Below are positions 1 to 17,246 of a stretch of DNA of 25,215 nt, piece by piece (the first letter of the stretch is position 1; each line of letters begins with the position of its first letter). The stretch lies in the IMG/VR virus record IMGVR_UViG_3300025313_000115, positions 1-25,215 of that record. One strand, 5' to 3'. This DNA comes from a virus. The position numbers were made by a program, and so were the translations under genes. The notes under the pieces were generated by a model, which saw nothing but the letters and a program-made list of their open reading frames with translations, was not told the DNA's origin and did no database searches.

Positions 1-10
1 GATCCTCGCG

Positions 11-853
11 TTGACGGTGGAGTTGCGGCAGGGTGACGGCCGGACGTGGGGCCCGGTGACGAACGCGAACGGGCAGACGGTCAACGGGCTGGTGCCCCTG
101 CCGGGGCGGCTGGAGGTGTCGATCTGCGGCGAGGTGTACGACGCGCGCGGTCGTCATCTGCACGGCGGCCAGTGCGTGGACGCGCTGCGTCGCCTCGTGC
201 AGGAGGGGTCGTCGCCGGGCCCTGGGCTGACGCGGGCGGACCTCTGGCGGTTGCTCGAGCTCTGGGAGCGGTGGCATCTGAACGGGATGCGGGCCGCGTG
301 CGCGCATCAACGGGGGCGCGGGGAGACCTACACGACGCATCCAGGCGCGGCGTGCCAGGACTGCGGCTATCGGCTCGGCTCGGCGTGGCTGACCGAACCG
401 CTCCCGCCGGATGTCGAGGCGTTCGTGCTGGATCTGCGGCGGCTGCCAGGTTCGCGGGGTGCGGCTGGGCAAGCGGAGGCCAAGGCCAGCGCGGAAAGGG
501 TGACCCTGCGGGTGCTCGGTGGGGCGCCGAGCAACCCCGCGATGCCTCAGGCGTCCGGAAACCACTGGCGCGTCGAGTTGCGGGGTCCGGATCGCAAGCG
601 GACGATGCGGTTCATCTTCACGAAGGGCGTCGGCCACGGGGGCCAGGAGCCGACCCTGGCCGAGGTGCTCGGATGTCTCCGCTCGGACGCGGAATCGCTG
701 GAGAGCACGGGCGGATTCGAAGCGTGGGCGCGGGAGATGGGCTGGGATGCGGACTCGCGCCAGGCCGAGCGGACCTATCGGGCGGTTGTCGCGCAGACCG
801 CGAAGCTCCGCGCTTGCCTCGGGGCGTCCTACCGCGCGCTGGTGGAGGTGTGA
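11..853 (+). CDS. phage hypothetical protein, two-domain (possibly 5'-partial)
   Basis: This 280-residue protein has no known biochemical function. It seems to join two modules that I recall as separate small proteins in other phages. The first (about residues 1-135) contains RWHLNGMRAACAHQ and then GYRLGSAWLTEPLP, a hallmark block of a widespread uncharacterised phage family. The second (about 155-280) contains FTKGVGHGGQEPTLAEVLGCL and DSRQAERTYRAVVAQTAKL, the hallmark of another uncharacterised phage family of about 100 residues. The start is taken as TTG at 11. The frame is open to the window edge, so the true start may lie upstream. The stop overlaps the next start. The reading frame is confident; the family resemblance is from memory and the fusion is an inference. 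Confidence 0.85.
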   Translation: MTVELRQGDGRTWGPVTNANGQTVNGLVPLPGRLEVSICGEVYDARGRHLHGGQCVDALRRLVQEGSSPGPGLTRADLWRLLELWERWHLNGMRAACAHQRGRGETYTTHPGAACQDCGYRLGSAWLTEPLPPDVEAFVLDLRRLPGSRGAAGQAEAKASAERVTLRVLGGAPSNPAMPQASGNHWRVELRGPDRKRTMRFIFTKGVGHGGQEPTLAEVLGCLRSDAESLESTGGFEAWAREMGWDADSRQAERTYRAVVAQTAKLRACLGASYRALVEV

Positions 854-960
854 GGCGCTCCTGGTGGCGCGAGCTGCAACGGGCCCTGCTGGCCCTGGGC
901 TGTGCGGTCGCCTGGGCGGCCGTGGCGGCGGCCGGGCTCGCGGCGGTGGGGCTGTGGTGA
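850..960 (+). CDS. small single-span membrane protein
   Basis: A 36-residue protein starting with GTG at 850, inside the stop region of the previous gene. It has a charged N-terminus with MRRSWWRE, then one continuous hydrophobic stretch rich in Ala, Leu, Val and Gly that ends at the C-terminus, as expected for one transmembrane helix with the positive end inside. No family is recognised. The tight overlap and high-GC third codon positions favour a real gene. Small membrane peptides are common in phage accessory regions, but the function here is unknown. Confidence 0.55.
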   Translation: MRRSWWRELQRALLALGCAVAWAAVAAAGLAAVGLW

Positions 961-997
961 TGGGCATGCGGTCAACGCTCAACGCTGGAGGTGGACG

Positions 998-1216
998 ATG
1001 GACCATGGAGCACGGCTCGAACGGTATCACTGCCGGCAGTGCGATCAGGACATGCCTCCGGAGGTGGACGGCCAGGGCCGACCGCGGCGCCGGCGTGACT
1101 GGGGCGGCCGGGTGCGGGTGCGGCTCGTGTGCGGCCATCGGGCGGACCCGGTGACCGATCGGCAGGTGGTCGCCGGGGCGTTCTGGGTGGGCGAGGACGC
1201 CGGGGTGCGGTCGTGA
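998..1216 (+). CDS. small zinc-ribbon-like protein
   Basis: A 72-residue protein. ATG at 998 is chosen because a strong ribosome binding site (GGAGGT, 987-992) lies six bases upstream; longer in-frame starts lack one. The sequence has YHCRQCDQDM near the N-terminus and LVCGHRADP about 30 residues later. A Cys-x2-Cys pair followed by Cys-x-His could bind one zinc ion. The linker is basic (RPRRRRDWGG). No named family is recognised. The stop overlaps the GTG of the next gene. A nucleic-acid or protein-binding role is only an inference from the fold type. Confidence 0.7.
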   Translation: MDHGARLERYHCRQCDQDMPPEVDGQGRPRRRRDWGGRVRVRLVCGHRADPVTDRQVVAGAFWVGEDAGVRS

Positions 1217-1476
1217 GGGCCGCGGGTCTGTTCGGCGCGCCTGGCGCGGCTGGGCCGCTGCCCGTGCCTGGGCTCGAGGGGTTCTTCCTGTGCGAAGACG
1301 GCGGGTTGGCGATCGCCCTGCCGCAGGAGCTCCGGCGGGCGGCTGGCGGGCGGTGCTGCTGCGAGGTGTGCTGCGGGGCGCCGGCGATCTGGGACACGCT
1401 GCGCGTCCACCCGAGGCACTCGACTGGGTGGCTGTGTCACTGGCCCCAGCTGCGGGCCGAGGCGATGCCGTCATGA
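1213..1476 (+). CDS. cysteine-rich phage hypothetical protein
   Basis: An 87-residue protein starting at GTG 1213, overlapping the upstream stop. A hydrophobic N-terminal half is followed by a cluster CCCEVCCG and then APAIWDTLRVHPRHSTGWLC. The cysteine cluster plus a W-D-T-L-x-V-H-P segment resembles a zinc-binding phage protein that I recall without a function. The last base triplets form an ATGA junction with a 12-codon mini-ORF. Coding is supported by GC-rich third positions and by overlaps on both sides. The longer frame beginning at 1129 lies inside the previous gene and is not used. Confidence 0.65.
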   Translation: MRAAGLFGAPGAAGPLPVPGLEGFFLCEDGGLAIALPQELRRAAGGRCCCEVCCGAPAIWDTLRVHPRHSTGWLCHWPQLRAEAMPS

Positions 1477-1511
1477 CCGTGACCCGGACCCGTGGTTGGC
1501 TGGGGAGGTAA
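1473..1511 (+). other. 12-codon bridging mini-ORF (possible coupling peptide)
   Basis: ATG at 1473 overlaps the previous stop in an ATGA junction. The frame reads 12 residues (MTVTRTRGWLGR) and stops with TAA at 1509-1511, four bases before the next ATG at 1516. The ribosome binding site of the next gene (GGGGAGGT, 1502-1509) lies inside it. This layout would let a terminating ribosome restart on the next gene. It could be chance. Confidence 0.3.
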
Positions 1512-1515
1512 AGGG

Positions 1516-1713
1516 ATGAAAAAGACACGACGGTTCCGCGCAGTCGAGTCGTGCATCGACGAGGGTTGCCGGTGCGACGACCGCGCCGGGGTCGTGCTGT
1601 ACGACGGCCCCGACGTTCACGAGGCTCGACAGGCCGAGGAGAGAGTTCGGTCTGGTTACAGCTTCCTTGTCGAAGAACTCATCGGCGAGGAAGTTGGGTG
1701 GAGCAAGTGTTGA
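1516..1713 (+). CDS. small acidic hypothetical protein
   Basis: A 65-residue protein with an ATG start seven bases after GGGGAGGT (1502-1509). It begins basic (MKKTRRFR), has a CIDEGCRCDD cluster near residue 20, and ends in an acidic segment with EELIGEE. Codon use is less GC-biased than in its neighbours, which may mean more recent acquisition. No family is recognised. The stop TGA at 1711-1713 overlaps the TTG start of the next gene. The strong ribosome binding site is the main support. Confidence 0.65.
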   Translation: MKKTRRFRAVESCIDEGCRCDDRAGVVLYDGPDVHEARQAEERVRSGYSFLVEELIGEEVGWSKC

Positions 1714-1898
1714 ATACGAAGCGGCGAACCGATGAGGACACCTGCGACGCGTGCCATCACCCGGTGCGCGCTCATCACCCCAACCAGCGGTACGGGGCGG
1801 CCTGCCTGATCCGCTGCGGGTCGTGCCGGCGCTACATCCTCGCTGCTGACTGGGGCACGCACCACGCGGCGGTGCCGCACCCCGGTGAGGCACGCTAG
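1710..1898 (+). CDS. small zinc-ribbon protein
   Basis: A 62-residue protein reading from TTG at 1710, which overlaps the upstream stop; a GGTGGAG element lies upstream at about 1697-1703. It carries two Cys-x2-Cys pairs, CDACHHPV and CGSCRRYI, about 24 residues apart, with several histidines between and after them, consistent with a single zinc ribbon. An ATG-started alternative is not available in the frame, so the start is the uncertain part. No named family is recognised; it belongs with the many small cysteine-pair proteins of this window. Confidence 0.6.
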   Translation: MNTKRRTDEDTCDACHHPVRAHHPNQRYGAACLIRCGSCRRYILAADWGTHHAAVPHPGEAR

Positions 1899-1974
1899 CC
1901 ATGGACGCGATCCGCGCCGCCGCCTCTGGGTGGAGGTTCCTGGCTGCATCGCGACGTGGCGCAGGAGGTGGGCG

Positions 1975-2301
1975 ATGCTGAGGCATGACCCGGGCCGCGG
2001 GCTGACGCTGATCGGTCGGCCTGGGGAGCGCTGGGGGGGCCTCGGCTCGTGCGGGCTCTGCGGCGAGACGGCCCCCGAGGGGACCTCCCCGCTCCTGCCG
2101 CAGGCTGTCCGGTGGTGGGATCCGGATGACGGGTGGCGCCTCGGGGTCTTGTGCCTCGGGTGCGGCCAGGAGGCCCGGACCCGTGGTCCCCACCGCGACG
2201 ACTTCGCCGTGGCGACCCGTCGGCCCCAGGCCGACCCCGCCCGCCTCGACCTCGCCGCCGCCGACGACCCCGACGCCGCCCTCTCCGACCTCCTGCCCTG
2301 A
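1975..2301 (+). CDS. zinc-ribbon-containing hypothetical protein
   Basis: A 108-residue protein. ATG 1975 is preferred over the longer GTG frame at 1885 because a near-perfect ribosome binding site (AGGAGGTG, 1963-1970) precedes it. Two Cys-x2-Cys pairs (CGLCGETA and CLGCGQEA) are about 40 residues apart and flank a tryptophan-rich segment (VRWWDPDDGWRLG), a zinc-ribbon arrangement. The C-terminal third is Ala/Asp/Pro-rich and probably disordered. It is the last gene of the first gene run and is followed by a hairpin that may end transcription. Function unknown. Confidence 0.65.
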   Translation: MLRHDPGRGLTLIGRPGERWGGLGSCGLCGETAPEGTSPLLPQAVRWWDPDDGWRLGVLCLGCGQEARTRGPHRDDFAVATRRPQADPARLDLAAADDPDAALSDLLP

Positions 2302-2318
2302 TCCGCCCGCCCTGAAGG

Positions 2319-2360
2319 CGATCACTCACTCCCGCTGTCCCTCAGGGGATGGGGTGATCG
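2319..2360 (+). terminator. imperfect hairpin, candidate terminator
   Basis: CGATCAC (2319-2325) pairs with GTGATCG (2354-2360). The stem continues with interruptions to CCC/GGG around a 12-base loop. It begins 18 bases after the stop at 2301 and is followed by a pyrimidine-rich tract (TCTCTCATCC). The tract is not a clean run of T, so efficiency is uncertain. Confidence 0.45.
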
Positions 2361-2643
2361 TCTCTCATCCTCTCTCGACCCCTCCGCGTGCCTCGCGGTG
2401 ACGTAGTCCCCCAGTAGCACGACCTCCGCTCCACTCCCCAGTCGCCTCAGCCGTATCCTGTTGTCCCAGCAGTGAAAGAAAATCCTTGACAGGTGTGTCC
2501 CCTCACTGAGCGTTTGACGCGCTGCTCCTGGCACGATGGATGCTAGCCCAGGACCCTGCTCGGCGTCAATCAGTCGGTCGCGCTGCGGCGTGCGCCGGAT
2601 GCCGGGTGAATTCTAGGCCGGATGCCTCATGGGCTGAGTCGGG

Positions 2644-2692
2644 ACTGACCCGGTGGACGGCGGGGGGGGGACTGACCCGGTGGACGGCGGGG
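2644..2692 (+). repeat. G-rich direct repeat, 27-base period
   Basis: The block starting ACTGACCCGGTGGACGGCGG occurs at 2644 and again at 2671, separated by a poly-G run. A shorter third copy, GGTGGACGGCGGGGGCG, lies at 2866-2882. The copies are in a gap with no convincing gene. Confidence 0.75.
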
Positions 2693-2732
2693 GCGTCCGG
2701 GCGGGGTCTGGGTGTGGCGTCGAGCCGGGGGT

Positions 2733-2770
2733 CCGGAGGACGGGTGGGAGCGACCCGGAGGACGGGTGGG
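2733..2770 (+). repeat. direct repeat, 22-base period
   Basis: CCGGAGGACGGGTGGG is present at 2733-2748 and exactly repeated at 2755-2770. It lies in the same gene-free, G-rich stretch as the 27-base repeats, so the region may have grown by local duplication. Confidence 0.75.
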
Positions 2771-2998
2771 GCCCACCGCACGGGGGCGCCACGGGGTCGG
2801 CCGGGCGCGGGGGGCTGGGCGCGGGTGGGCGAGCCGGGCGCGCCTCGGTCGTCCACGGGCTGGCTGGTGGACGGCGGGGGCGCCGGCACAAGTGCAGGGC
2901 GAACGGACGGATCACAAACCGCGCGCGGCGGGGGAAATGCCGGCCCGCCTGCGCGACGCCTTCCAGATTTTTCCCGCAGAAATTTTGAGGGAATGCTG

Positions 2999-3027
2999 TT
3001 GACGTGGGGGGGGGGATGTGGCAGGAT
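2999..3027 (+). promoter_or_regulatory. candidate promoter with a ten-G spacer
   Basis: TTGACG at 2999-3004 resembles a -35 box. A 17-base spacer leads to CAGGAT at 3022-3027, a partial -10 match. The spacer contains an uninterrupted run of ten Gs (3006-3015). An AT-rich pocket (2965-2990) lies just upstream of the -35 position, as an UP element would. The next gene starts at 3054, a plausible leader length. Promoters of unknown hosts cannot be called with certainty from sequence alone. Confidence 0.4.
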
Positions 3028-3053
3028 GTCGCCACAGTCCGGGGGGGCACAGG

Positions 3054-3332
3054 ATGGCGCACGGAGATCCGCACGGTCGATGGTCGCGTGAGCGACGCGG
3101 TGAGGAGGCGCCGAGGACTTGCCGGGGGCAGGCGTGCTGCGACCCCGCGTTGCCGCACGAGCATGCCGAGGAGGACCTGCCGGTGTCGGATCACGGGGTG
3201 GAGGGGGCGATCCCGCTGCCGGTGGCGGACGCTGCGGCGTGGGGGCGGCTGAACATGGCCCCGTCGGACGCGGAGTGGGCCGAGCAGAACCGGCGGATCA
3301 ACGACCTGCTGGCGGGGCGGAGCCGCGCATGA
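3054..3332 (+). CDS. hypothetical protein, first gene of second run
   Basis: A 92-residue hydrophilic protein. It starts MAHGDPHGRW and has RTCRGQACCDPALPHEH in the first half, a Cys/His cluster that could bind metal. The acidic middle is followed by an ADAAAWGRLNMAPSDAEWAEQNRRINDLL helix-like tail. ATG 3054 is chosen over the GTG at 3018 because the earlier codons overlap the promoter candidate, but no clear ribosome binding site separates the two. The stop overlaps the next ATG in an ATGA junction. No family is recognised. Confidence 0.6.
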   Translation: MAHGDPHGRWSRERRGEEAPRTCRGQACCDPALPHEHAEEDLPVSDHGVEGAIPLPVADAAAWGRLNMAPSDAEWAEQNRRINDLLAGRSRA

Positions 3333-3550
3333 CGGGACCGTTCTCTGCGGGGATGCTTCGGGCGCTGTCGCGTCTCATGGGTCGGGCGGCCGCTCACCCG
3401 GCGGCGCACGCTCCTGAGACTCCGGAGGGGGGCTATCAGGCCGGCGAGCCATGGTACGAGTCCGCGACGCGGATGCGGAAGTACCGGCGAGCGCGCGCGA
3501 CGCGCACCCGGATGGCGCGGGCATCCCGTCGCGCGAACCGGGCGGCGTGA
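3329..3550 (+). CDS. small basic hypothetical protein
   Basis: A 73-residue protein whose ATG overlaps the previous stop (ATGA). The N-terminal half is mixed; the C-terminal 30 residues are highly basic (KYRRARATRTRMARASRRA), suggesting nucleic-acid or membrane-surface binding. The longer upstream open frame is a shadow of the preceding gene. The next ATG follows the stop by one base. No homologue is recognised and the role is unknown. Confidence 0.6.
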   Translation: MTGPFSAGMLRALSRLMGRAAAHPAAHAPETPEGGYQAGEPWYESATRMRKYRRARATRTRMARASRRANRAA

Positions 3551-3551
3551 C

Positions 3552-3776
3552 ATGCCCACGCGCCTGATCTTGGTCACGGACCCGGTGGCTGAGGGCCAGC
3601 CGCTCGGCACGGAGATGCCGCGGTGGTACGTCGCATGGACCTATCCGGACGCGACGGACCTCGAAACGATGTACTGGACCTTCGAGCAGGCGATGCTGAG
3701 CCTGCGGCAGGAGCTGGCGGAGGCGGGCGTGATGGGCCGGCCGTCGGACCCGATCGCTGGAGCATCCTGCCCATGA
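3552..3776 (+). CDS. hypothetical protein
   Basis: A 74-residue protein starting at ATG 3552, one base after the previous stop. It reads as a compact mixed fold: MPTRLILVTDPV strand, PRWYVAWTYPDATDLETM, then an amphipathic helix (EQAMLSLRQELAEAG). It ends six bases before the tRNA at 3783. Coding is supported by GC-rich third positions and position in the gene run. No family or function is recognised. Confidence 0.65.
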   Translation: MPTRLILVTDPVAEGQPLGTEMPRWYVAWTYPDATDLETMYWTFEQAMLSLRQELAEAGVMGRPSDPIAGASCP

Positions 3777-3782
3777 TGACAC

Positions 3783-3860
3783 CGCGCGGTGGACTGGAAC
3801 GGCTCCAGCGGGAGGCTCATACCCTCCACCAAGCCGGTTCGACTCCGGCCCGCGCCACCA
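3783..3860 (+). tRNA. tRNA-Met-like (anticodon CAT), CCA encoded
   Basis: A cloverleaf can be drawn. The acceptor stem has six perfect pairs (GCGCGG, 3784-3789, with CCGCGC, 3850-3855) plus a C-C mismatch at the first pair. The anticodon stem is GGAGG/CCTCC (3811-3815 with 3823-3827) around CTCATAC, giving anticodon CAT at 3818-3820. The T arm is GCCGG/CCGGC around TTCGACT. The discriminator is A, followed by encoded CCA (3858-3860). A first-pair mismatch, A73 and CAT recall initiator tRNA. The D arm is irregular, pairing as TGGA/TCCA with an unusual three-base connector, and the anticodon stem lacks the three G-C pairs typical of initiators. It could instead be an elongator or a lysidine-modified tRNA-Ile. 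Confidence 0.7.
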
Positions 3861-3873
3861 TCGTGACCGGATC

Positions 3874-4122
3874 ATGGACGACCAGAGCCCGAGCCCGGTG
3901 ACGCTGATGGACGCCCAGGGGGTGGTCCTGGCCGTGGTGTCCATCGAGGAGTTCCGCCGGAGCCGGCAGGCGCTGCGACAGTGTCGCCGCCACCGGCGGG
4001 AGCTGTGTGTCTTCTGTTTGCCGGCGATGCCCGCGCGCGCCCGGCCGATGGCGCCGTCCGCGGGGGTCCGGGACCGCGCCCGGCGGGCGGCGAGGACGCG
4101 CTGGCATGGCCCGGCGGCGTGA
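3874..4122 (+). CDS. hypothetical protein
   Basis: An 82-residue protein beginning 13 bases after the tRNA. The N-terminal half looks folded (PVTLMDAQGVVLAVVSIEEF, then a basic helix RRSRQALRQCRRHRRE) with a CVFC pair near residue 45. The C-terminal half is basic and Ala/Pro-rich. Its stop overlaps the GTG start of the following frame (GTGA). There is no strong ribosome binding site. No family is recognised. Confidence 0.6.
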   Translation: MDDQSPSPVTLMDAQGVVLAVVSIEEFRRSRQALRQCRRHRRELCVFCLPAMPARARPMAPSAGVRDRARRAARTRWHGPAA

Positions 4123-4916
4123 GCGATCTGCGGGAGGTGCGGCGGTGCCTGGAATGCCACCAGCCGCTGCCGTTCGACGCCCATCCGCTGCGCGTGCGGT
4201 GCTCGAGGCGGTGTCGTCGGAAGGCCGCCACGGCGCGGCGGCGGGCGCGTGACCGCGCGGCCCGGGGCGTGGTCGGCGCGGCCCGGGGCGTGGTCGGCGC
4301 GGCTGACGCCGAACGGCTGGCTCAACCGCGCGACGGTGGCCGCCCTGGCCGGGTACACCATCGACGAGCTGCGCAACGTGTGCGAGCGGGCGGACCTCGG
4401 GCAGAAGATGCTGTTCCTGTCGGCCCCGCATCCGGCGAACCCGGCGATGCGGTTCGGGCACCAGTGGTGGATTCTCCCGGCGACGGTGGTGGAGGCCTTG
4501 CGGTGGCGCCGGCTGGCGCGGGCCTATCACGCCGACCACCGCCATCAGAAGCGCAAGCACCCGCCCTCCCCGTGGGACCCTTTTCTACTGCCCCACGACA
4601 GACGCTGCGCCTGCATGCCAACGACGTCATCGCCAACCTCTACTGGGGCACCAACGAGCTTCGCCGTCTCGCAGGCAAGGCGGAAGCTCAGGACGATGTC
4701 TTCACGGCGGCGTGGGCGACGCACCGCTTCGTCGAGGAATTGAGGCGCGTGACCGAGCTGGTGGTGGGCAAGACGACGCGGCTGGACGTGACCATTGCCT
4801 CGCAGGAGGACCTGCCGGACTGGAACGCCTTGCCGGCAGAGGTGCGGGCGGCGCTCGACCAAGCCTTCGAGCAGTTGCCGCCGATCTACGCGGGGGAGGC
4901 CCGGCGCGTTGAGTAG
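4119..4916 (+). CDS. zinc-knuckle N-terminus plus C-terminal domain; middle read in another frame
   Basis: GTG at 4119 overlaps the previous stop. The first 40 residues contain CLECHQPLPFDAHPLRVRCS followed by RRC, a zinc-knuckle arrangement known from small phage and HNH-type proteins, then a basic tail. From about 4600 the same frame again looks coding (HANDVIANLYWGTNELRRL, RFVEELRRVTELVVG, LPAEVRAALDQAFEQLPP). Between about 4300 and 4580 this frame is compositionally poor, while the frame of the 4249 gene is clearly coding. The stop TAG at 4914-4916 overlaps the TTG of the glycosyltransferase, so the 3' end is real. The locus is therefore two or three pieces: a zinc-knuckle gene, the 4249 gene, and this C-terminal part reached by a -1 shift or from a weak GTG at 4572. 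Confidence 0.5.
   Translation: MSDLREVRRCLECHQPLPFDAHPLRVRCSRRCRRKAATARRRARDRAARGVVGAARGVVGAADAERLAQPRDGGRPGRVHHRRAAQRVRAGGPRAEDAVPVGPASGEPGDAVRAPVVDSPGDGGGGLAVAPAGAGLSRRPPPSEAQAPALPVGPFSTAPRQTLRLHANDVIANLYWGTNELRRLAGKAEAQDDVFTAAWATHRFVEELRRVTELVVGKTTRLDVTIASQEDLPDWNALPAEVRAALDQAFEQLPPIYAGEARRVE
4249..4743 (+). CDS. helix-turn-helix-like protein, probably shifted to frame ending at 4916
   Basis: The frame starts with GTG at 4249. It opens with the doubled heptapeptide PGAWSAR and then a convincing domain: LTPNGWLNRATVAALAGYTI, DELRNVCERADLG, a strand-like AMRFGHQWWILPATVVEALR and a basic helix RWRRLARAYHADHRHQKRK. The order helix, AALAGYT turn and helix suggests a helix-turn-helix DNA-binding domain, but I cannot name the family. 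Coding character ends near 4584. The zero-frame tail to 4743 is Ser/Thr/Arg-rich and looks like a shadow of the frame ending at 4916. The likely full product is this domain joined to that downstream frame at the slippery site, or the sequence has a one-base error there. Confidence 0.55.
   Translation: MTARPGAWSARPGAWSARLTPNGWLNRATVAALAGYTIDELRNVCERADLGQKMLFLSAPHPANPAMRFGHQWWILPATVVEALRWRRLARAYHADHRHQKRKHPPSPWDPFLLPHDRRCACMPTTSSPTSTGAPTSFAVSQARRKLRTMSSRRRGRRTASSRN
4261..4302 (+). repeat. perfect 21-base tandem duplication
   Basis: The unit beginning CCCGGGGCGTGGTCGGCGCG occurs at 4261-4281 and is exactly repeated at 4282-4302. It is in frame, giving PGAWSAR twice in the 4249 gene and ARGVVGA twice in the overlapping frame. 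It lies exactly where the coding signal moves between the two frames. Confidence 0.85.
4578..4584 (+). other. candidate -1 frameshift heptamer C CCT TTT
   Basis: In the frame of the 4249 gene the bases read C CCT TTT, matching the X XXY YYZ rule: both tRNAs can re-pair after a one-base backward slip (CCC TTT). The new frame enters the coding-looking segment ending at 4916. No clear upstream Shine-Dalgarno stimulator and no strong downstream hairpin are seen, so this could also be an indel in a C/T run. Confidence 0.4.
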
Positions 4917-5634
4917 CGCGGGCGCCGTCCACCCGCCCGGCATGATCGTGCTCCCGCTGGGCGACCTCACCCGCTACACCGACTTCTGGGTCTCGGTCCT
5001 CGCGCTCCAGCGCCCGCCCGGCACCGGCATCCTCCCGGTCAAGGGCACCTCGGTCGCCCGCAACAAGAACCAGGCGTACCGCGCCTTCCTCACGAGCGGC
5101 GCCCAGTGGGTCTGGTCGATGGGGGACGACCATGTGTTCCTCCCTGACATCCTGACGCGGCTGCTCGACCACCAGGTGGACGTGGTGGCGCCGCTCTGTC
5201 TCAAGCGGAAGCCCCCCTTCCAGCCGGTCGTCTACCGCGGGCCGGGGGAGCGCGAGCACTTCTTGGAGCGGTACACGATGGAGGGCCTCGCCGCGTCCCG
5301 GGGACTCCTCGAGGTGTACGCCTGCTCGACGGCGGGAATGCTCGTGCGGCGCCGCGTTGTGGAGGCGATCGCCGATCCCTGGTTCGAGCTGGGGCAAGGC
5401 TCGACGGATGTCCTGGGCGAGGACCTGCACTTCTGCGCCAAGCTCCGCGCGGCCTCCATCCCAATCTACGTGGACCTGGACGTGACGCTGGGCCACCAGA
5501 CGCCGATGACGGTCTGGCCCGAGCGGGACGAGGCCGGGATGTGGTGGGTGGCGATCGACGCCGACGGCGTGCGGATCAGGCTGGCGCCGATGGACGGGGC
5601 GCCGGCCGCGGCCTCCGGAGCGCCGGCGCCATGA
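4909..5634 (+). CDS. GT-A fold glycosyltransferase-like protein
   Basis: A 241-residue soluble protein likely to transfer a sugar from a nucleotide donor. An N-terminal strand ([10 protein letters not shown]) is followed by [14 protein letters not shown], as in phage GT-A enzymes. WSMGDDHVF holds a DxD-like metal site (D73, D74), [16 protein letters not shown] follows, and GEDLHF (E171, D172) fits a C-terminal acidic pair. Length is typical for a single-domain GT-A enzyme. TTG 4909 is used because GGGGGAGG (4892-4899) sits at good spacing; ATG 4942 is the alternative. It overlaps the upstream stop and its own stop overlaps the acyltransferase ATG, so the pair is probably co-translated. Donor and acceptor are unknown; a surface glycan, virion protein or modified base are all possible. 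Confidence 0.8.
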
Positions 5635-6119
5635 TCGCCTCCCCGCACGACGACTTCGAGGGCTGGACGGGCGGCAAGGTCCACCGCCTGGCCCTCGTGC
5701 ATCCCACCGTGGTCCTGGGCGAGGGCACGCTCGTCTGGCCCTACGCCTACGTGCGGGCCGACGTCGTGACCGGCGCGCAGTGCGCGATCGGCCACGGGGT
5801 CTCGGTCGCCGAGCGGGCGCGCCTCGGGGACCGGGTGCGCGTCCAGACCTTCGCGCTGCTGTGCCAGGACCTCATCGTTGGCGACGACGTGTTCATCGGG
5901 CCCGGCGTGCTCACCGCCAACGACCCGGCGCCTCGGGTGGGGAATCCGCACTACGTCCGCCGCCCGCCCGTCATCGCGCGCGACGTCGTGATCGGGGCCG
6001 GGGCGATCCTGCTGCCGGGGGTCCGGATCGGCCAGGGCGCCGTGATCGCCGCCGGCGCCGTGGTGACGCAGGACGTGCCACCCTACGCGCGCGTGATGGG
6101 GGTGCCGGCGCGTGGCTGA
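5631..6119 (+). CDS. hexapeptide-repeat (left-handed beta-helix) acyltransferase
   Basis: A 162-residue protein of the hexapeptide acyltransferase superfamily, whose trimeric members transfer acetyl or longer acyl groups from CoA, often to amino sugars. Repeating hydrophobic-x-G-x-x steps run through [50 protein letters not shown] and [20 protein letters not shown]. The end, [20 protein letters not shown], is the classic final coil. The extra loop with [17 protein letters not shown] resembles the Asn-rich insert of sugar N-acetyltransferases. The usual short C-terminal helix after GVPA is missing because the gene stops inside the start of the crotonase gene. It starts at ATGA overlapping the glycosyltransferase stop. 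Substrate unknown; context suggests a sugar added by its neighbour. Confidence 0.85.
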
Positions 6120-6861
6120 GATCCTGTACGATGTCGAGGGGCACGTCGCCACGCTGACGCTCAACCGCCCCGAGAAGAAGAACGCCGTGAATCACGCGAT
6201 GTGCCAACAGCTCGCGGGGGCGTTCGCGTCGATCCAGGACGACCCCGAGGTCTGGTGCGCGGTGCTCACGGGGGCCGGCGGCGTGTTCTCGTCGGGCCAC
6301 GATCTGACCGAGGACTTCACCGACGCCTGGCCGACCTTCGCCGATCTCTACGCGATCCAGGCGCAGCTCACCAAGCCGCTGGTGGCCGCCGTGGAGGGGA
6401 TCTGCTACGCGCAGGGCACGGCGTTGGCGCTCGGGTGCGACGTGGTGCTCGCGTCGGTCTTCGCGACCTTCGGGTGGCCCCAGGTGCGCCGCGGCATCGG
6501 CTCCGTGAGCGGCCCAACGGTGTTCGCGAGGCTCGTGCCGCGCCACACCGCGATGCGCGCCCTGTTGACGGGGGAGCCCGTCATGGCGGGCACGCTCTCC
6601 CGACTCGGCGTCATCGAAGTCGTGCGTGAAGGCCTCGCGGTGCTCGCCGAGGCGCAGCGGTTGGCCCGCGTGATCGCCTCGAACGCTCCGCTCGCGGTGC
6701 AGGCCGTCAAGCTCGCCGTGGTCGACACGACGCCGCTCCGCCCGCTGACGGCGTATCGCGTGGCCACGGACATCCTCAAGGATGTGCTCAGGACCGAGGA
6801 CGCCGCCGAGGGCCTCCGGGCCTTCCGGGAGCAGCGCCCGCCGGTCTGGAAAGGACGCTGA
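6112..6861 (+). CDS. crotonase-fold (enoyl-CoA hydratase/isomerase family) protein with altered active site
   Basis: A 249-residue protein of the crotonase superfamily, which binds acyl-CoA and stabilises a thioester enolate. [11 protein letters not shown] (17-27), FSSGHDL (59-65, first oxyanion loop) and [15 protein letters not shown] (96-110, second loop) are diagnostic, as is the natural-looking C-terminus [12 protein letters not shown]. The two catalytic glutamates of enoyl-CoA hydratase (Glu144 and Glu164 of the rat enzyme) align with A104 and Q124, and the usual glycine-rich second loop is altered. Simple hydration is therefore unlikely; another acyl-CoA reaction or a binding role is possible. 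GTG 6112 overlaps the acyltransferase stop. Such genes are rare in phages. The family call is secure; the function is not. Confidence 0.85.
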
Positions 6862-6936
6862 CTGCTCTGCCATAACTGCAACATGGCCAAGGGGTGTTAC
6901 GGTGAATGCCCGCATCGCAAGAATGGGCCGCGTTCG
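6862..6936 (+). pseudogene. 3' remnant of an HNH / endonuclease VII-type gene
   Basis: Directly after the crotonase TGA, in the same frame, the codons read LLCHNCNMAKGCYGECPHRK. This matches the C-terminal zinc-binding part of recombination endonuclease VII and related HNH nucleases, which typically read G-L-L-C-x-N-C-N. No start codon, DHDH motif or first CxxC pair precedes it. The frame stays open past this point, but coding character fades by about 6936. The fragment looks like the surviving 3' end of a nuclease gene cut where the crotonase cassette joins. Confidence 0.6.
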
Positions 6937-6956
6937 GTGGTCCAGGAGGAGCGCCA

Positions 6957-7109
6957 ATGGGCGTGTTGTTATGGTTCTATAGGTGTCCGAAGTGCGGGTC
7001 GACACGGTGCTGGGCGGATAGCCGCCCGGGGGGCGATGCCGCCTGGGACCGCGAGGCGTGCGGCTTCTGCGGCACGCCCTTGCAGCGCGTGGAGCGGCAA
7101 GCGGCGTAG
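6957..7109 (+). CDS. 50-residue zinc-ribbon protein
   Basis: ATG 6957 follows AGGAGGA (6944-6950) at ideal spacing. The product has CPKCGSTRCW near residue 10 and CGFCGTPL near residue 38, two Cys-x2-Cys knuckles that together make a classic zinc ribbon, with a Gly/Asp-rich loop between. The start codon usage (ATG, GTG, TTG, TTA) is less GC-biased than in neighbours. Alternative longer starts overlap the nuclease remnant and lack a ribosome binding site. Function unknown; zinc ribbons of this size often bind nucleic acids or protein partners. Confidence 0.7.
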   Translation: MGVLLWFYRCPKCGSTRCWADSRPGGDAAWDREACGFCGTPLQRVERQAA

Positions 7110-7151
7110 CAGTGGTTCTCTTTTTCGTGCGAGGATAACGAGGAGGACATC

Positions 7152-7478
7152 ATGCAGGACCTGCCACATCATGGTGAGCACTGGTTCAAGGATGTCGGCG
7201 AGCAAGCCGAACAGGCGAGGCGGGCGGACCAACTCAAGGCGACGATCCGCACACTCACAGAGCAGACGAGCCGTGTCGGGTTGCCTCTCGGCGAAACGGG
7301 CCAGTATCCTCAAGGCGCGATGACGCCCGATGACGAAGGCGAGTTGCGTCTCGCGGTGACGACGCAGGCCGGGAAAGTGATTCTCGCCTTTGGCAAGCCG
7401 ATTGCGTGGCTCGGGATGTCTCCACGAGAAGCTCGGCAGATGGCTGACGCGCTGAACGAGTGGGCCGCGAAGGCATGA
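7152..7478 (+). CDS. hypothetical phage protein
   Basis: A 108-residue protein with a strong ribosome binding site (AGGAGG, 7141-7146) five bases before ATG. The N-terminal half is a long charged helix (EQAEQARRADQLKATIRTL). The C-terminal half has strands GELRLAVTTQAGKVILAFG and a helix MSPREARQMADALNEWA, a layout I recall from small uncharacterised phage proteins. Codon use is somewhat less GC-rich than in the structural genes. Its last bases overlap the DHH gene start (ATGA), so the two are probably co-translated. Confidence 0.75.
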   Translation: MQDLPHHGEHWFKDVGEQAEQARRADQLKATIRTLTEQTSRVGLPLGETGQYPQGAMTPDDEGELRLAVTTQAGKVILAFGKPIAWLGMSPREARQMADALNEWAAKA

Positions 7479-8332
7479 GCCCCCTCGTCCTCTATCACGG
7501 CAACTGCCCCGACGGCTTCACCGCCGCGTGGGCGGTCTGGAAGGCCCTCGGCGATCAGGCGGAGTATCGCGCCGTCAACTACGGCGAGGCGCCGCCGCTG
7601 GACGACGCGGCGGGGCGCCGTGTGATCCTCGTGGACTTCTCGTATCCGCGCGCCGCACTCGACGCGCTGGCCGACGTGGCAGCCTCCGTCGAGGTGTATG
7701 ATCATCACAAAACCGCCCAGGCCGACCTCGTCGGATGGGAGCGCGGAGGAGTGGTGTTCGACATGGAGCGCAGCGGGGCGGGGATCGCGTGGGATGCGTT
7801 TCACCCCGGGCGCGTTCGGCCGGCCCTCATCGCCTACGTCGAGGATCGTGACCTGTGGCGATGGCAACTGACGTCGAGCCGAGAGGTGAGCGAGTACGTG
7901 TTCTCCTGGTCCTACTTGTTTGCGAATTGGGACCGTCTCGCCAGTCAGCTCGGGGCTCTCGACCCGCGCGGCGGTGTGGCCTTCCAGACTGCCGTTGAGT
8001 GCGGGTCTGCGATGCTCCGCGCCAAGCGTGCTCGCGTGGCGAAGGTCTGCGAGCACGCACGGTGGCTCATCTTCTCGGGCGGCGTCGGTGATCAGGTCAC
8101 GCTCCCGGTTGTCAACACCTCTTGGGACTTCTCCGAGATCGGCGAGTACCTCTGTGAGCGGTTCCCGGACGCCCCCGCGGGCGGCTACTACTTCGACCGG
8201 GCCGACCAGCGCCAGTGGGGATTTCGGAGTCGTGGCGAGTTCGACGTGTCGGAGTTGTGCAAGCGGTATGGTGGGGGAGGGCACAAGGCGGCCGCAGGGT
8301 TTCAGTCGGAGATCGGATGGTTGCCGTGCTGA
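7475..8332 (+). CDS. DHH/DHHA1 family phosphoesterase
   Basis: A 285-residue protein of the DHH phosphoesterase family, metal-dependent enzymes that hydrolyse short oligonucleotides, cyclic-dinucleotide products or related phosphodiesters. Motif I is YHGNCPDGFTAAWA (H8, D13), motif II VDFSYP (D54), motif III VYDHHKT (D76, H77, H78), and YVEDRDLW supplies a further acidic residue. The C-terminal GGGGHKAAAGF (266-276) is the DHHA1 substrate-binding motif. All key metal ligands are present, so it should be active. ATG 7475 overlaps the upstream stop. Its role in the phage could be recycling of nanoRNA during host degradation; action on a signalling nucleotide is a speculative alternative. Confidence 0.88.
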   Translation: MSPLVLYHGNCPDGFTAAWAVWKALGDQAEYRAVNYGEAPPLDDAAGRRVILVDFSYPRAALDALADVAASVEVYDHHKTAQADLVGWERGGVVFDMERSGAGIAWDAFHPGRVRPALIAYVEDRDLWRWQLTSSREVSEYVFSWSYLFANWDRLASQLGALDPRGGVAFQTAVECGSAMLRAKRARVAKVCEHARWLIFSGGVGDQVTLPVVNTSWDFSEIGEYLCERFPDAPAGGYYFDRADQRQWGFRSRGEFDVSELCKRYGGGGHKAAAGFQSEIGWLPC

Positions 8333-8727
8333 TCGAGCGGCTCCCCGACCGCTCCCTGGTCTTCTGCTGCACCTGGCGGGAGTTCCTCCAGGCGTGGCGG
8401 CAGGCCGACCAGGCCCACCGCGTGGTGCTCCCGGACGGCCGCCCGGCCGCCCGGACGGACGGCGAGGGCGAGGAGCCGCCGAGCTACACGAGTCTCCACC
8501 CGCACGTCTGGCCCGTGCTCCGGGCGCGGTTGAAGGAGGCGTTCGCGCTCGTGCCGCCGTCCTCGAAGCGCGTGCGGCTCTGCGAGGCGTGCCGGAGCGA
8601 GTTGAAGGTGTCCAGGGAGGAGTCGATGGTCTGGCATTTCAAGTGCGAGACGTGCGGCTCCATCGAGATCTACGGCAAGGACTTCGTGGGGGGCACCCCG
8701 GGTGCCGGAGAGAAGGAGCGGCCATGA
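8317..8727 (+). CDS. zinc-ribbon-containing hypothetical protein
   Basis: A 136-residue protein starting at ATG 8317 after CGGAG (8308-8312), overlapping the end of the DHH gene by 16 bases. The N-terminal two-thirds contains IERLPDRSLVFCCTWREFLQ and a helix before a disordered acidic loop. The C-terminal third carries CEACRSELKV and FKCETCGSIEIYGKDF, two Cys-x2-Cys pairs forming a zinc ribbon of the transcription-factor type. No named family is recognised. It ends in an overlap with the next small gene. Confidence 0.7.
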   Translation: MVAVLIERLPDRSLVFCCTWREFLQAWRQADQAHRVVLPDGRPAARTDGEGEEPPSYTSLHPHVWPVLRARLKEAFALVPPSSKRVRLCEACRSELKVSREESMVWHFKCETCGSIEIYGKDFVGGTPGAGEKERP

Positions 8728-8873
8728 TGCACGAGGACCACGCGATGCCGAAGATGCCGAAGGGCATGTCCATGAAGCCGCCGAAAGGGATGAAGGGTCC
8801 GGGGCGCCAGACGACGCGCCGGCCGACGCGGAGCCAGCAGCGGTCGCGGGCGCGGAAGATGACCCGTGGCTGA
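8724..8873 (+). CDS. small basic Met/Lys-rich protein
   Basis: A 49-residue protein with ribosome binding site AGAAGGAG (8711-8718) before ATG 8724 (a second ATG follows at 8727). It begins MMHEDHAMPKMPKGMSMKPP and ends in an arginine-rich tail (TRRPTRSQQRSRARKM). The composition predicts a disordered, strongly cationic peptide that might bind DNA or a virion component. No family is recognised. Its stop overlaps the GTG of the next tiny gene. It lies close upstream of the terminase, so a packaging or head role is possible but unproven. Confidence 0.6.
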   Translation: MMHEDHAMPKMPKGMSMKPPKGMKGPGRQTTRRPTRSQQRSRARKMTRG

Positions 8874-8985
8874 GGCGGCCTCGCCGCGCCGCATCTGCCG
8901 CGAGTGCTGGCGTATCGACGACGAGAGCCTCGTGACGCGCCGGTGCGAGCCGCGCTGCGCCTGTCCCTGCCACGGCGCCGCCTGA
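8866..8985 (+). CDS. 39-residue cysteine-rich zinc-ribbon-like peptide
   Basis: GTG 8866 overlaps the stop of the previous gene, and TGA (8983-8985) overlaps the ATG of the next (TGATG). The product reads CRECWRIDDESLVTRRCEP and then RCACPCH, six cysteines and a histidine in 39 residues, so it likely folds around one zinc ion. It is too short for most gene finders, but the tight overlaps on both sides and high-GC third positions support it. Function unknown. Confidence 0.55.
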   Translation: MAEAASPRRICRECWRIDDESLVTRRCEPRCACPCHGAA

Positions 8986-9248
8986 TGGACACCCTCCTGT
9001 CGATCCTCGCCCTCTTCGTGATCGCCGAGGCGTTCGGGCTGTTCGTCCTCGGCCTGCTGGTGGCGCAGGATCGGGAGCGGACGCGGCATCTGACGCGCGT
9101 GATGCTGGCGCTGCGGGACGAGGTGCGGCGGCAGGCCGGCGTCGAGGTGGCGGTGGACCGGAGCCTGCTGGGCGAGGAGCCGGAGGATGTCGTGGCGACC
9201 GAGGAGGACGAGGTGTCACGCATCCCGACGGTGCGGCCGTGGCGGTGA
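8985..9248 (+). CDS. small membrane protein with one N-terminal span
   Basis: An 87-residue protein starting at the TGATG junction at 8985. Residues 3-26 (TLLSILALFVIAEAFGLFVL) are a single strong transmembrane segment, followed by a charged helix DRERTRHLTRVMLALRDEVRRQ and an acidic tail. The topology is like small phage membrane proteins of unknown role; a lysis-related function such as a spanin-like or holin-like protein is conceivable but nothing specific supports it. It overlaps the terminase start by ten bases. Confidence 0.65.
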   Translation: MDTLLSILALFVIAEAFGLFVLGLLVAQDRERTRHLTRVMLALRDEVRRQAGVEVAVDRSLLGEEPEDVVATEEDEVSRIPTVRPWR

Positions 9249-12049
9249 TCCCCCCGCTCGAGACCCGCATCGACGCCGAGAAGCTCCGGTGGGCCCGCGA
9301 GATGGCCCGCTGCGAGCAGGACGTCGATTACCTCTCCTCGCACTATCTCCGGATCAAGAGCAAGACGGTCATCGGCTTCCCGAACCTGAAGCCGAACCGC
9401 GTCCAGCGCTTCCTGCACGAGAAGATGCAGGACCAGTGGAAGCGGACGGGCCGGATTCGGCAGTGCTGGGGAAAGATTCGGCAGTGTGGCGCCAGCACCG
9501 AGGTCTCCCGGCACGTCTTCCACCAGACGGCGTTCCGGAACAACCGCAACGCCTTCATGGTCAACTACGACGAGCCGAACAGCTACGAGCTGTTCGACGT
9601 GTATCCCACCTACTACGATTCCTTGCCGGTGCCGCTCCGCCCGACGCTGAAGACGCGCTCCAAGAGCCGCATCGAGTTCAAGAACCGCAATTCCAAGATC
9701 CTCGCCGCGCACGCGCTGAACCTGAACGTCGGCGCCTCGCAGATGAACCACGTCGTCCACCTGACGGAGGTGGCGCGCTACAAGAACGCCCACGAGATCC
9801 AGGCGAGCCTCTTCCCGTCCATCTCGGAGGCGAAGGGCGAGGACTACTCCCTCGTCGTCCTGGAATCGACCTCGCGGTACGGCGGCGACTGGTTCAAGGA
9901 TTTCTGCGAGGCGGCGCAGGCCGGGGAGAACGGCTACGAGTTCAGCTTCGTCCCGTACTTCATGCACGAGGACTACACGGCCCCGGTGCGGCGCGAGTTC
10001 CAGCCGACCGCCGAGGAGCGCGACCTCATGAAGCAGTACGGCATGAGCCTCGGGAACATCGCGTGGCGCCGCCAGAAGCGAGCGGAGTACAAGACGAACG
10101 TCGCGCTCTTCGAGCAGGAATATGCGTGCTGTCTTTCCGGCGACACGAGGATTTCCACCGATCACGGGATGGTGCGTCTGCGCGATGCGGAGAGCGAAAA
10201 GACCACCGAATCCGGGCGCATCCTGGGCTGGCTCCCGCAAGGACTGAGCGAGACACTCCTCGTCAGAACATCGCTCGGATACGAAATCGTCGCCACACCC
10301 GAACATCTGATCGCCACGGCTTCAGGCGGATGGGTTGACGCGGCCTCGAGCCTTGGGTCTCGGGTCGAACTGCGCCCGCCCAGGTTCGCGGAACGCGAAG
10401 AGACGCTGTCGTGGTCAGACGTGCCGTCGACGCAGACGACATTGACCGTCACGGCGACCTGGGGTCGGTTTCTCGGCTACTTCATGGGGGATGGCTCCTA
10501 TGCGATGTCTCGTGGCCCGCACGTGTCAGCGGGAGCCGGTGGAACGCTGAGCGTGTGTTGCGACGCACAGGATGGCGACGTGATCTTGGACGTCGAGCGT
10601 GTGGTGCGTGACCTGTTCGGCGCCCCCATGCAGCGGCGTCTCGTGGGACCTCGCCGTGGAGGCTGTGATCTTCGGGCCTCTCGCGCCCAGTTCTTTCGGC
10701 CACTCCTCGAACTCGGTGTCATAGAGCGACGCGGGCCCGAGCGTCGCTGGATGCGCAAGGTGTGTGTGCCCGAGGCGGTCTTTCGGAGTCCTCGGCACGT
10801 CGTGCGCGAATTTCTCCGGGCACTCTTCGAGTGCGATGGCAGCGTGCGTCGTTCTGGCAATGTGCTTCTGTTCTCTAAGTACGAAGACTTCCTTCGTGAT
10901 ATCCAGCTCCTGCTCCTCGGGTGGGGGATCACGTCGCGTCGCGAGCGGTGGAAGCAGAAAGAGCAGTACGGCCCGGGGCATGTCCTGGCACTCCGAGCCG
11001 AAGAATCGGAGATGTTCCACGCCACAATCGGATTTATCGGAGCGAGGAAGTCGTGGGCGAGTCCTCCGCCGACGACTCGGCGCGGCCGGCGTCGGCAGCC
11101 TGTGGTGCTCAATGACATCGTGACGTCGGTGGTCCCCTCTGGGCTCCGCGCGGTGTACGATCTCGTCCTCCCTCCGCCCCATACGTTCAGCGCGAACGGC
11201 ATCGCCGTGCATAACTCGTGGGAGTCGTCCTGGGTCCTCCCCCTCGGCACGCTCCGCACCTTCGACTGGCCCACCCTGGAACGCCTCCAGGCGGGCCTCC
11301 GTCCCGGCCAGCGTATGACGCCGACCTCGACGGGTCTCCGGCCGGAGCTCGGCGGGCCGGTGGAGGTCTGGCAGCCGCCGCAGCCGGACGTCTACTACGA
11401 CATCGGCGTGGACCCCTCGCAGGGGCGGACGAAGGACGCGGACTGGACCGGCATCTGCGTGGTCCGCCGCGACCGCCTCGAGCAGGTGGCTGAGTGCCGC
11501 GTCCACATGGACCCTGCTGGGCGGGAGTTCTTCGATCTCGTGTACTGGCTCGGGCACAACTACAACACCGCGCAGTTGAACCCGGACATCACGGGGGGCT
11601 GGGGCCTGGCGCTGATGAGCGAGTTGCAGCGGCGCTCGTACCCGAACATCTGGCGCTGGCGCCGGCCGGACGACGCCAAGGAGCGCGTGTCCAGCCGCCT
11701 CGGCTTCCTGTTCACGCAGCGCGACAAGGCCCGGCTGGTGAGCAACGCCGTGACGCTCGCCCAGCAGGGCCAGGTCGTGATCCACTCCCAGGTGCTCCAC
11801 GACGAGATGCGGGACTACTTGAACGTGGGGCTGGACGAGTGGGGGCCGGCGCCGGGGGGCACCGACGACAGTCTGACCGGCTGGATGCTGGCCCTGATCG
11901 CCGCCCGGGACGAACGGTGGGACGTCGAGGAGCTGGCGCCAGGGGCCGAGCCGGAGGCTGCGGCGTCCTGGGCGGTCCACGACGTGGACGCGGACCTACG
12001 TGACGAACACGACCACGACATGCTAGCGTTGGGGCCATGGAGAGCGTGA
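9239..12049 (+). CDS. terL: terminase large subunit, interrupted by an in-frame intein
   Basis: A 936-residue precursor. The exteins (574 residues after splicing) form the DNA-packaging motor: an ATPase that pumps DNA through the portal, plus a nuclease that cuts concatemers. The ATPase half shows a Walker A-like KIRQCGAST (79-87), a Walker B-like VVHLTEVARY with E177, and the coupling motif ESTSRYGGDWF (209-219). The nuclease half begins YYDIGVDPSQG (D721, D725) and ends GGTDDSLTGW (D876, D877), matching an RNase H-like acidic site. The intein (residues 298-659) splits FEQEYAC from SWESSW. The Walker A strand is preceded by a seven-residue near-duplication (IRQC twice). GTG 9239 overlaps the upstream gene. 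No separate small terminase gene is identified with confidence. Confidence 0.92.
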   Translation: MAVIPPLETRIDAEKLRWAREMARCEQDVDYLSSHYLRIKSKTVIGFPNLKPNRVQRFLHEKMQDQWKRTGRIRQCWGKIRQCGASTEVSRHVFHQTAFRNNRNAFMVNYDEPNSYELFDVYPTYYDSLPVPLRPTLKTRSKSRIEFKNRNSKILAAHALNLNVGASQMNHVVHLTEVARYKNAHEIQASLFPSISEAKGEDYSLVVLESTSRYGGDWFKDFCEAAQAGENGYEFSFVPYFMHEDYTAPVRREFQPTAEERDLMKQYGMSLGNIAWRRQKRAEYKTNVALFEQEYACCLSGDTRISTDHGMVRLRDAESEKTTESGRILGWLPQGLSETLLVRTSLGYEIVATPEHLIATASGGWVDAASSLGSRVELRPPRFAEREETLSWSDVPSTQTTLTVTATWGRFLGYFMGDGSYAMSRGPHVSAGAGGTLSVCCDAQDGDVILDVERVVRDLFGAPMQRRLVGPRRGGCDLRASRAQFFRPLLELGVIERRGPERRWMRKVCVPEAVFRSPRHVVREFLRALFECDGSVRRSGNVLLFSKYEDFLRDIQLLLLGWGITSRRERWKQKEQYGPGHVLALRAEESEMFHATIGFIGARKSWASPPPTTRRGRRRQPVVLNDIVTSVVPSGLRAVYDLVLPPPHTFSANGIAVHNSWESSWVLPLGTLRTFDWPTLERLQAGLRPGQRMTPTSTGLRPELGGPVEVWQPPQPDVYYDIGVDPSQGRTKDADWTGICVVRRDRLEQVAECRVHMDPAGREFFDLVYWLGHNYNTAQLNPDITGGWGLALMSELQRRSYPNIWRWRRPDDAKERVSSRLGFLFTQRDKARLVSNAVTLAQQGQVVIHSQVLHDEMRDYLNVGLDEWGPAPGGTDDSLTGWMLALIAARDERWDVEELAPGAEPEAAASWAVHDVDADLRDEHDHDMLALGPWRA
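10130..11215 (+). mobile_element. intein with LAGLIDADG homing endonuclease inside terL
   Basis: A 362-residue intein. Cys1 begins block A (CLSGDTRIST). Block B holds ATPEHLIAT with the catalytic Thr-x-x-His. Two LAGLIDADG motifs, LGYFMGDGS (D418 of the precursor) and FLRALFECDGS (D533), make a bidirectional homing nuclease. Block F is VYDLVLPPPHTFSANG and block G ends IAVHN, followed by Ser660 of the C-extein. All splice-site residues are intact, so self-excision is expected. The DNA is visibly less GC-biased in codon use than the flanking exteins, consistent with recent arrival. Splicing would restore a continuous FEQEYAC-SWESSW, where intein-free terminases have a conserved E-Y-x-C/S-type segment. 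Confidence 0.92.
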
Positions 12050-12051
12050 CG

Positions 12052-12435
12052 ATGGAGATCCAGAAATGGTGCCAGCCGCATTGGGACGCACTCCGTGCGA
12101 CCGTCGAGGCGCGTGGGCTCGGACATCTTGTGTCGCGGGGCGGAGCGGCCGCAGCGGCGCATGTCGCGGACGAACTGCGCCTCGGTAACGCCCATGATCG
12201 TGAGGGATTCGACCCCTTACTCCGAGCGTGGGCAATGATCTCTGGGCGAGCGCTTGACAATGGGGTGAGCCCCGTTGGATGCCCACTGTGTCACGTCCAG
12301 CGGCACCACGATGAGTGCCAGCAGCCTGGGTGTTTCCTGGCCTCGGCGCAGGACTGGATCGACGGCTGCACGGAGTCGCTGCGCCAGTACGCTATGGGCC
12401 TTGGTCTCACTACGGCAGAGACAGGAGAGGCATGA
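12052..12435 (+). CDS. phage hypothetical protein adjacent to terminase
   Basis: A 127-residue protein. ATG 12052 is chosen because GGAGAG (12040-12045) lies six bases upstream; ATG 12037, which overlaps the terminase end, is the alternative. It begins MEIQKWCQPHWDALRATVEA and continues RGLGHLVSRGGAA, which matches a widespread uncharacterised phage family known for a W-C-x-P-H-W start. The C-terminal half has CPLCHVQRHHDECQQPGC, a likely zinc site, and DWIDGCTESLRQYAMGLGL. The family is common near packaging or structural genes, but its function is unknown. Its stop overlaps the next start. Confidence 0.8.
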   Translation: MEIQKWCQPHWDALRATVEARGLGHLVSRGGAAAAAHVADELRLGNAHDREGFDPLLRAWAMISGRALDNGVSPVGCPLCHVQRHHDECQQPGCFLASAQDWIDGCTESLRQYAMGLGLTTAETGEA

Positions 12436-13088
12436 TGGCCGATAAGATCTGGTCCTACTTCAGCGAGCAGACCAAGGATCGTCTCCGGGTGGTGGCGGAC
12501 GGGCGCCATGTGGCGATGGCCGAGGCGGCTGCGCTGCTGGTCATGGAGGCGCTGGAACCGAGGCCGGAGGGCGGCTCGACGACGGCCGGGGCGCCGTCGC
12601 CACCGAGCCTCGACGACGCCGCCAGCCTGTTCCTGCGTCATCTCCCGCAGGACCAGGCCGACCTGATCCGCGAGCTGTGTCTGGACAACGGGGCGCGGCC
12701 CTGGCAGTACCTGATGTCCTACATCCACCTAGCGCACGAGCGCGGCGAGACCGCCGTGATGGCCAGCGAGACCGTGCTGGACGAGATCGCGGCGCCGCCG
12801 GCCGCCTCGCCGGGCCAGGTCGCCGCCGGAGCGACCGGGACATGCCTCTACTGCGGGGGCGCGTTCCAGGCCGTCCGCCGCGGGCAGAAGTATTGCCCCG
12901 ATCCCGAGGACGGCCCCGGCTGCGGGCGCAAGGCGTTCCTGGAGGACCTCCACCAGCGCCGACCCCAGACACCGTTCCGGGGGCGCCAGCCCCAGGCCGC
13001 GCCCACGCCGTCGCCGCCGCCCGCGCCGACGTTGCTCGACACCGTGGCGCTCCGCCAGGCGATGCTGGCCGGAACCCCGGAGGGCTAA
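12435..13088 (+). CDS. hypothetical protein with zinc-ribbon, upstream of portal
   Basis: A 217-residue protein. ATG 12435 sits four bases after AGGAGAGG (12423-12430); ATG 12432 is possible but too close. An N-terminal helical domain begins ADKIWSYFSEQTKDRLRVVA and contains AMAEAAALLVMEALE, resembling a small ribbon-helix-helix or CopG-like module only superficially. A middle helical domain has DLIRELCLDNGARPWQYLMS. A zinc ribbon follows (CLYCGGAF, then QKYCPDPEDGPGCGRKAF), and the tail is Pro/Ala-rich and disordered. Its position between terminase and portal would suit a packaging accessory or small terminase, but nothing specific supports either. Confidence 0.75.
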   Translation: MADKIWSYFSEQTKDRLRVVADGRHVAMAEAAALLVMEALEPRPEGGSTTAGAPSPPSLDDAASLFLRHLPQDQADLIRELCLDNGARPWQYLMSYIHLAHERGETAVMASETVLDEIAAPPAASPGQVAAGATGTCLYCGGAFQAVRRGQKYCPDPEDGPGCGRKAFLEDLHQRRPQTPFRGRQPQAAPTPSPPPAPTLLDTVALRQAMLAGTPEG

Positions 13089-13094
13089 CCGACG

Positions 13095-14813: not shown

Positions 14814-14880
14814 TCCTCAAAAAACTTCTTGCATCGGCGTGTCAGGATGCCCATGCTACGGAGCAGATGAGGAGCCGCTG

Positions 14881-15405: not shown

Positions 15406-15557
15406 CAGCCTGGCACATAGGGCCGATCCAGCCGCTCTTCTTCGCATGGTCCTTCCCGGTCTACGACCGCCCGTTCCAGATCAGCGGCGTGGTGGTGCCG
15501 GCGTTCCACTGGACGCTGGTGACCTCCCGCGGGATCTTCCTGGGCGGGGTCAACTGA
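15402..15557 (+). CDS. 51-residue hypothetical protein
   Basis: ATG 15402 overlaps the previous stop (ATGA), and TGA 15555-15557 overlaps the next ATG (TGATG). The product begins MTAWHIGPIQPLFFAWSF and has a beta-rich, aromatic sequence (ISGVVVPAFHWTLVTSRGIF). It is below usual gene-finder length, but the perfect junctions on both sides make it likely real. No family or role is recognised. Confidence 0.65.
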   Translation: MTAWHIGPIQPLFFAWSFPVYDRPFQISGVVVPAFHWTLVTSRGIFLGGVN

Positions 15558-15739: not shown

Positions 15740-15749
15740 AAGGAGTGCG

Positions 15750-15869: not shown

Positions 15870-15871
15870 CG

Positions 15872-16102: not shown

Positions 16103-16210
16103 CGCGGCGCGGTCTGGATCGTCAGGCAACCGGCGCCGCCGATGCAGCGCACATGGTGACCACCGCAGGTCCTGGGGAAGCCATGTAGGACGATGAGTGC
16201 GGCCCACCGG

Positions 16211-17243: not shown

Positions 17244-17246
17244 CCC

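Follow-up and report, generated by a model that had tools for sequence, protein, structure and literature searches.

The locus considered here is a G-rich non-coding gap (positions 2302–3182; 40% G and 31% C) located 5′ of a series of rightward genes and flanked by the called genes 1975–2301 and 3183–3332, all features being on the plus strand unless indicated otherwise. It belongs to a window, i.e., the whole stretch of DNA that was analysed, of 25,215 nucleotides, which is a whole IMG/VR virus record classed as linear and with about 70% GC. In each of the six frames the codon scores stay below zero between about 2305 and about 3120, with a few bins, on the minus strand and on the plus strand, near zero (e.g., −0.5 at 2785–2880). 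The sequence-only reading previously made of this DNA had placed a gene start at 3054; the frame from this position scores −15.7 (3025–3120) and −10.7 (3073–3168), carries no coding signal until about 3121 and is positive from the 3121–3216 bin on, and the better start is GTG at 3183 with the Shine-Dalgarno sequence GAGGAGG (3168–3174) 8 nt upstream. The first rightward gene (3183–3332, 49 aa), based on the gene caller and codon score, has no Pfam match, and its start at 3183 results in a predicted leader of about 150 nt. The stretch 3034–3190 folds no better than its shuffles (z 0.17), and the Rfam search gave no match. Within the gap there are also G-rich repeats at 2640–2885, namely, GGTGGACGGCGGGGG (three copies) and ACTGACCCGGTGG, which possibly mark an origin or packaging region.

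The first gene is followed by two small reading frames without PHROG or Pfam matches (3329–3550, with no clear coding score, and 3552–3776, with a clear one) and by a tRNA-Met (CAT) detected by ARAGORN at 3783–3860. Further 3′ and in the same direction lie the accessory-type genes that had been expected from the letters alone: a GT2-like gene (4909–5634) and a hexapeptide transferase (5631–6119), both identified by Pfam and gene call, and an enoyl-CoA hydratase/isomerase (6112–6861; PF00378, 4.3e-44), an enzyme of which the presence in a phage, adjoining the other two genes, is an observation in its own right. The phage origin, also supposed earlier, is supported by matches to terminase, portal, and major head protein.

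The picture is extended by further contigs of this virus. Contig G004 (IMGVR_UViG_3300025087_000188) is identical to window positions 12374–25215 and then extends for 26,376 b, and contig G001 (IMGVR_UViG_3300025322_000189) aligns to positions 1–13782 and has another 5,791 b upstream of position 1. The initial 1,947 b of this added stretch match the terminal part of the G004 continuation without a difference, and by arithmetic the overlaps give a circle of about 55.4 kb. All genes called in these pieces are on the plus strand, and all 9 G/C runs of at least 7 are G runs on this strand. Several contigs of this virus start or stop between 12374 and 13792, and one of them (L023, 3300025146) shows 11 clustered mismatches to the window at 12620–12656, near its own end. 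Another region of the same phage (L022:15872–16525) encodes a protein consisting mostly of ADLxGADLRGA pentapeptide-like repeats. The large terminase (9239–12049, 936 aa) is matched by two relatives, G011 and G012, only at about aa 12–350 and 660–935, and its middle part contains LAGLIDADG_3 (aa 521–598, above the cut-off) and Intein_splicing (aa 340–659, below the cut-off), from which the terminase is judged a probable intein carrier. No similar DNA was found among 50,697 phage records, and no GTDB genome contig encoding a relative of the head protein was found.

Shortly before the end of the gap several promoter-like features are located side by side. An AT-rich pocket (2965–3000, 61% AT, a value reached by 0.08% of all 36-mers from the contigs of this phage) leads into the −35-like hexamer TTGACG (2999–3004; 5/6 to TTGACA), which is separated by a spacer of 17 nt (3005–3021) containing a run of ten Gs (3006–3015) from the −10-like hexamer CAGGAT (3022–3027; 3/6 to TATAAT). 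The sequence-only reading had given the letters and coordinates of this site exactly, had noted an AT-rich pocket just upstream, the location of the G run between both hexamers and the weakness of the −10 match, and had missed the TG preceding the −10, which makes it an extended −10-like element (TGG-CAGGAT, 3019–3027). In high-GC bacteria TAGGAT-like −10 hexamers are often present, and an extended −10 is expected to reduce the dependence on spacer length. The −10 is also covered by an inverted repeat TGTGGC-N8-GCCACA (3017–3036), the sole copy in this phage's contigs and a possible operator, which may have arisen by chance, the window containing 111 perfect 6-bp inverted repeats with loops of 4–12.

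The site is tied second among 11,250 hexamer/spacer combinations scored in the phage's contigs, using a promoter score into which the TG bonus was put only after TG had been noticed at the site; the best promoter score of the 881-b gap was reached by 2.0% of shuffles with this bonus and by 12.8% without it. When the gap was shuffled with its dinucleotides preserved, 0 of 1000 shuffles had a run of at least 8 inside TTGAC-N16-18-nAnnnT, a pattern defined after the finding was seen. A stricter consensus scan omits the site (8/12 matches versus a threshold of 9), and the sole site it lists is on the minus strand at 2569–2540. Three further TTGAC-type matches are present in the same gap, at 2486 (+), 2514 (+), and 2569 (−), so the site may be one of several promoters or an unused one. 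On balance, a predicted promoter at this site is the more probable reading of the sequence.

The explanation preferred here goes further, and is tentative, at a little short of even confidence: the AT pocket, TTGACG, the 17-nt spacer, and the extended −10 would form a sigma-70-type promoter with a mutable G10 spacer, from which transcripts would start near 3034 and run into the rightward genes, the first of them at GTG 3183. The G10 run would be mutable by replication slippage, and the loss of one G would shorten the spacer to 16 nt and change promoter strength in a graded manner rather than on/off, an effect which the extended −10 would buffer. This explanation makes no claim of selection for switching.

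The strongest competitor, considered rather unlikely, is that there is no promoter at all and that a chance G run lies in a G-rich non-coding region, perhaps the origin or packaging region, with the difference of nine versus ten Gs produced by sequencing or assembly error. The composition of the gap agrees with it, since besides the G-rich repeats there are other G runs in the gap (G9 at 2662–2670 and G7 at 3041). The 8-mer G8 is not overrepresented in the window (5 matches versus 4.25 expected), and a G/C run of at least 10 occurred in 22–47% of Markov genomes of this size (order-1 to order-3, 60 each), so that G10 by itself is unremarkable. What stands against this explanation is the coincidence of the AT pocket, the −35, the 17-nt spacing, and the TG-extended −10 just 5′ of a coding start.

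The length of the run bears on the same question. Contig G001 has nine Gs where the window has ten, giving a spacer of 16 versus 17 nt; the two differ at 3 positions over 13,782 aligned columns, and the G run is the only indel. For G/C runs of at least 6 in the other contigs of this virus 48 of 49 comparisons agree, the G10 run being the sole exception, and among runs of at least 8 the remaining comparisons, one for the G9 at 2662 and two for the G8 of the G004 continuation, agree, which argues against simple error. A further contig, G002, breaks off at the nearby G7, which fits error, and its contig-edge G8 versus the G7 of the window was left out of the counts, the left flank being missing. 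The differing run is also the longest one of the phage, as error would have it; slippage and sequencing or assembly error predict this alike, and two assemblies cannot separate them. Some sequencing platforms are described as producing indel errors in homopolymers (PMC8808543). Between two other long viral contigs, L075 and L107, the sole differences over 1,516 aligned columns are a pair of single-base indels, each located in a C run, which also fits error. Three of the four repeated pairs of poly-G loci found in other viral contigs are also one base apart, so that the length difference says little about function. Of the earlier proposal that slippage alters the spacer length, the one-G difference between two assemblies was found, which may be biological or an error.

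A selected phase switch of the porA type, in which slippage toggles the rightward genes, including surface-type enzymes, within the phage population, represents a live, unproven minority reading that is regarded as doubtful. Known bacterial systems provide its background. At porA of Neisseria meningitidis, tracts of 11, 10, and 9 Gs are described as resulting in graded PorA levels (PMC3639595), at tp0126 of Treponema pallidum transcription is reported as best at a −35/−10 distance of 17 nt (PMC7864442), and meningococcal repeats are described as able to alter promoter spacing (PMC5084427). The phage site resembles both loci at the sequence level in having poly-G between −35-like and −10-like hexamers, with 9 and 10 Gs in its two assemblies against 9, 10, and 11 at porA, where single-G steps of this kind go with graded expression (PMC3639595), and with a spacer that at G10 equals the best tp0126 distance (PMC7864442); these likenesses, together with the glycosyltransferase and hexapeptide transferase 3′ of the site as enzymes of surface-modification type, favour a switch. 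It differs from them in that single-base expression steps were measured at porA (PMC3639595) and tp0126 is a bacterial chromosomal gene with transcription data (PMC7864442), whereas the present case is a phage of about 70% GC, represented by two assemblies and by sequence alone. In N4-like phages homopolymers of up to 12 nt are reported and regulation by polymerase slippage is suggested by the authors (PMC3670811); a long homopolymer tract in a phage genome is common to both cases, but the tracts of N4-like phages were compiled once apparent frame-shifts had turned up in assemblies of 454 reads, in an account that, as far as consulted, names no promoter spacer (PMC3670811). Among the titles and abstract openings listed from the open-access literature on phage poly-G or homopolymer phase variation, none concerns a phage promoter spacer.

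Several observations weaken the case for a selected switch. Chance alone often produces a run of this length here, the one-base differences in three of four repeated pairs elsewhere make such a difference a poor guide to function, the extended −10 should weaken spacer dependence, and the enzymes begin about 1.7 kb downstream, behind the small frames and the tRNA. The tract is also absent from two relatives. Apart from further copies of this virus, the head protein is common to L009 (67%), G011 (72%), and G012 (57%), of which L009 is too short to reach the operon start, and the whole contigs G011 and G012 contain no G run in a TTGAC spacer. The earlier analogy with a porA-like device is supported in its promoter-like anatomy within a non-coding gap, and the tract itself is lacking in these two relatives. 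G011 does have a G7 at 22785, about 20 nt before its first rightward ATG, with no clear promoter hexamers around; it was rejected as a counterpart, being outside any TTGAC spacer. Relatives were also collected by the DHH gene (10 loci, two of them this virus), and in the 7 of the 8 others that were compared, L035 being left out, synteny at the operon start is absent; it is likewise absent in the relatives of gene 4795–5634 (L012–L014). The element is hence not conserved, although this is a weak test, as no closer relative except copies of the same virus was found.

Promoter-like poly-G spacers do occur in some other viral contigs among the matches listed, which speaks for a switch. A pattern scan of viral contigs provided 80 loci among the matches listed, of at least 120 stretches, and 46 loci were retained after dropping 4 repeats and the 30 members of a recurring family (TTGACnTAyG8) that was taken as coding by look alone. 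Among these listed matches TATAAT-like hexamers (5 or 6 of 6) were present at 8 of 230 positions at spacers 14–18 versus 15 of 1,012 at spacers 19–40 (Fisher one-sided p 0.047, with the grouping picked after the matches were seen); spacers 11–13 (2/138 positions among the matches listed) were left out of the test, and one of the 8 TATAAT-like loci, L060, looks coding by eye. Perfect TATAAT was found in 3 of the 46 loci among the matches listed, with spacers of 14, 15, and 16, and at no other spacer within 11–40. This spacing enrichment around poly-G is suggestive only. The hexamers themselves appear convincing as promoter-like sequence in four loci, some of which may lie in host rather than virus DNA: L114 (TTGACA-C-G9-CAGTG-TATAAT, spacer 15), L069 (TTGACA-ATA-G11-TATAAT, spacer 14), L061 (TTGACG-G7-AAATAAGTG-TATAAT, spacer 16), and L059 (TTGACA-G9-AAGTGA-TATATT, spacer 15). 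In a distant search of phage records the L114 region had a single match, covering 21% of the query, and the L061 and L059 regions had none.

A translational switch, in which nine Gs would join the frame from ATG 2540 to the frame of 3054–3332 and toggle a fusion protein, is very improbable: according to the ORF list the frame 2540–3091 minus one base does join the frame of 3018–3332, but the stretch 2540–3053 is without coding signal in any frame and open frames this long arise easily at about 71% GC.

In a wider reading, several phage lineages would carry contingency promoters whose slipping poly-G spacers set the strength of operon expression within one phage population, the window with its 9- and 10-G forms being one case; this generalization is considered improbable. 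In pathogenic bacteria, slippage in promoter spacers is a documented means of varying expression without a regulator, and a phage that used this device could allow its populations to hedge the expression of an operon.
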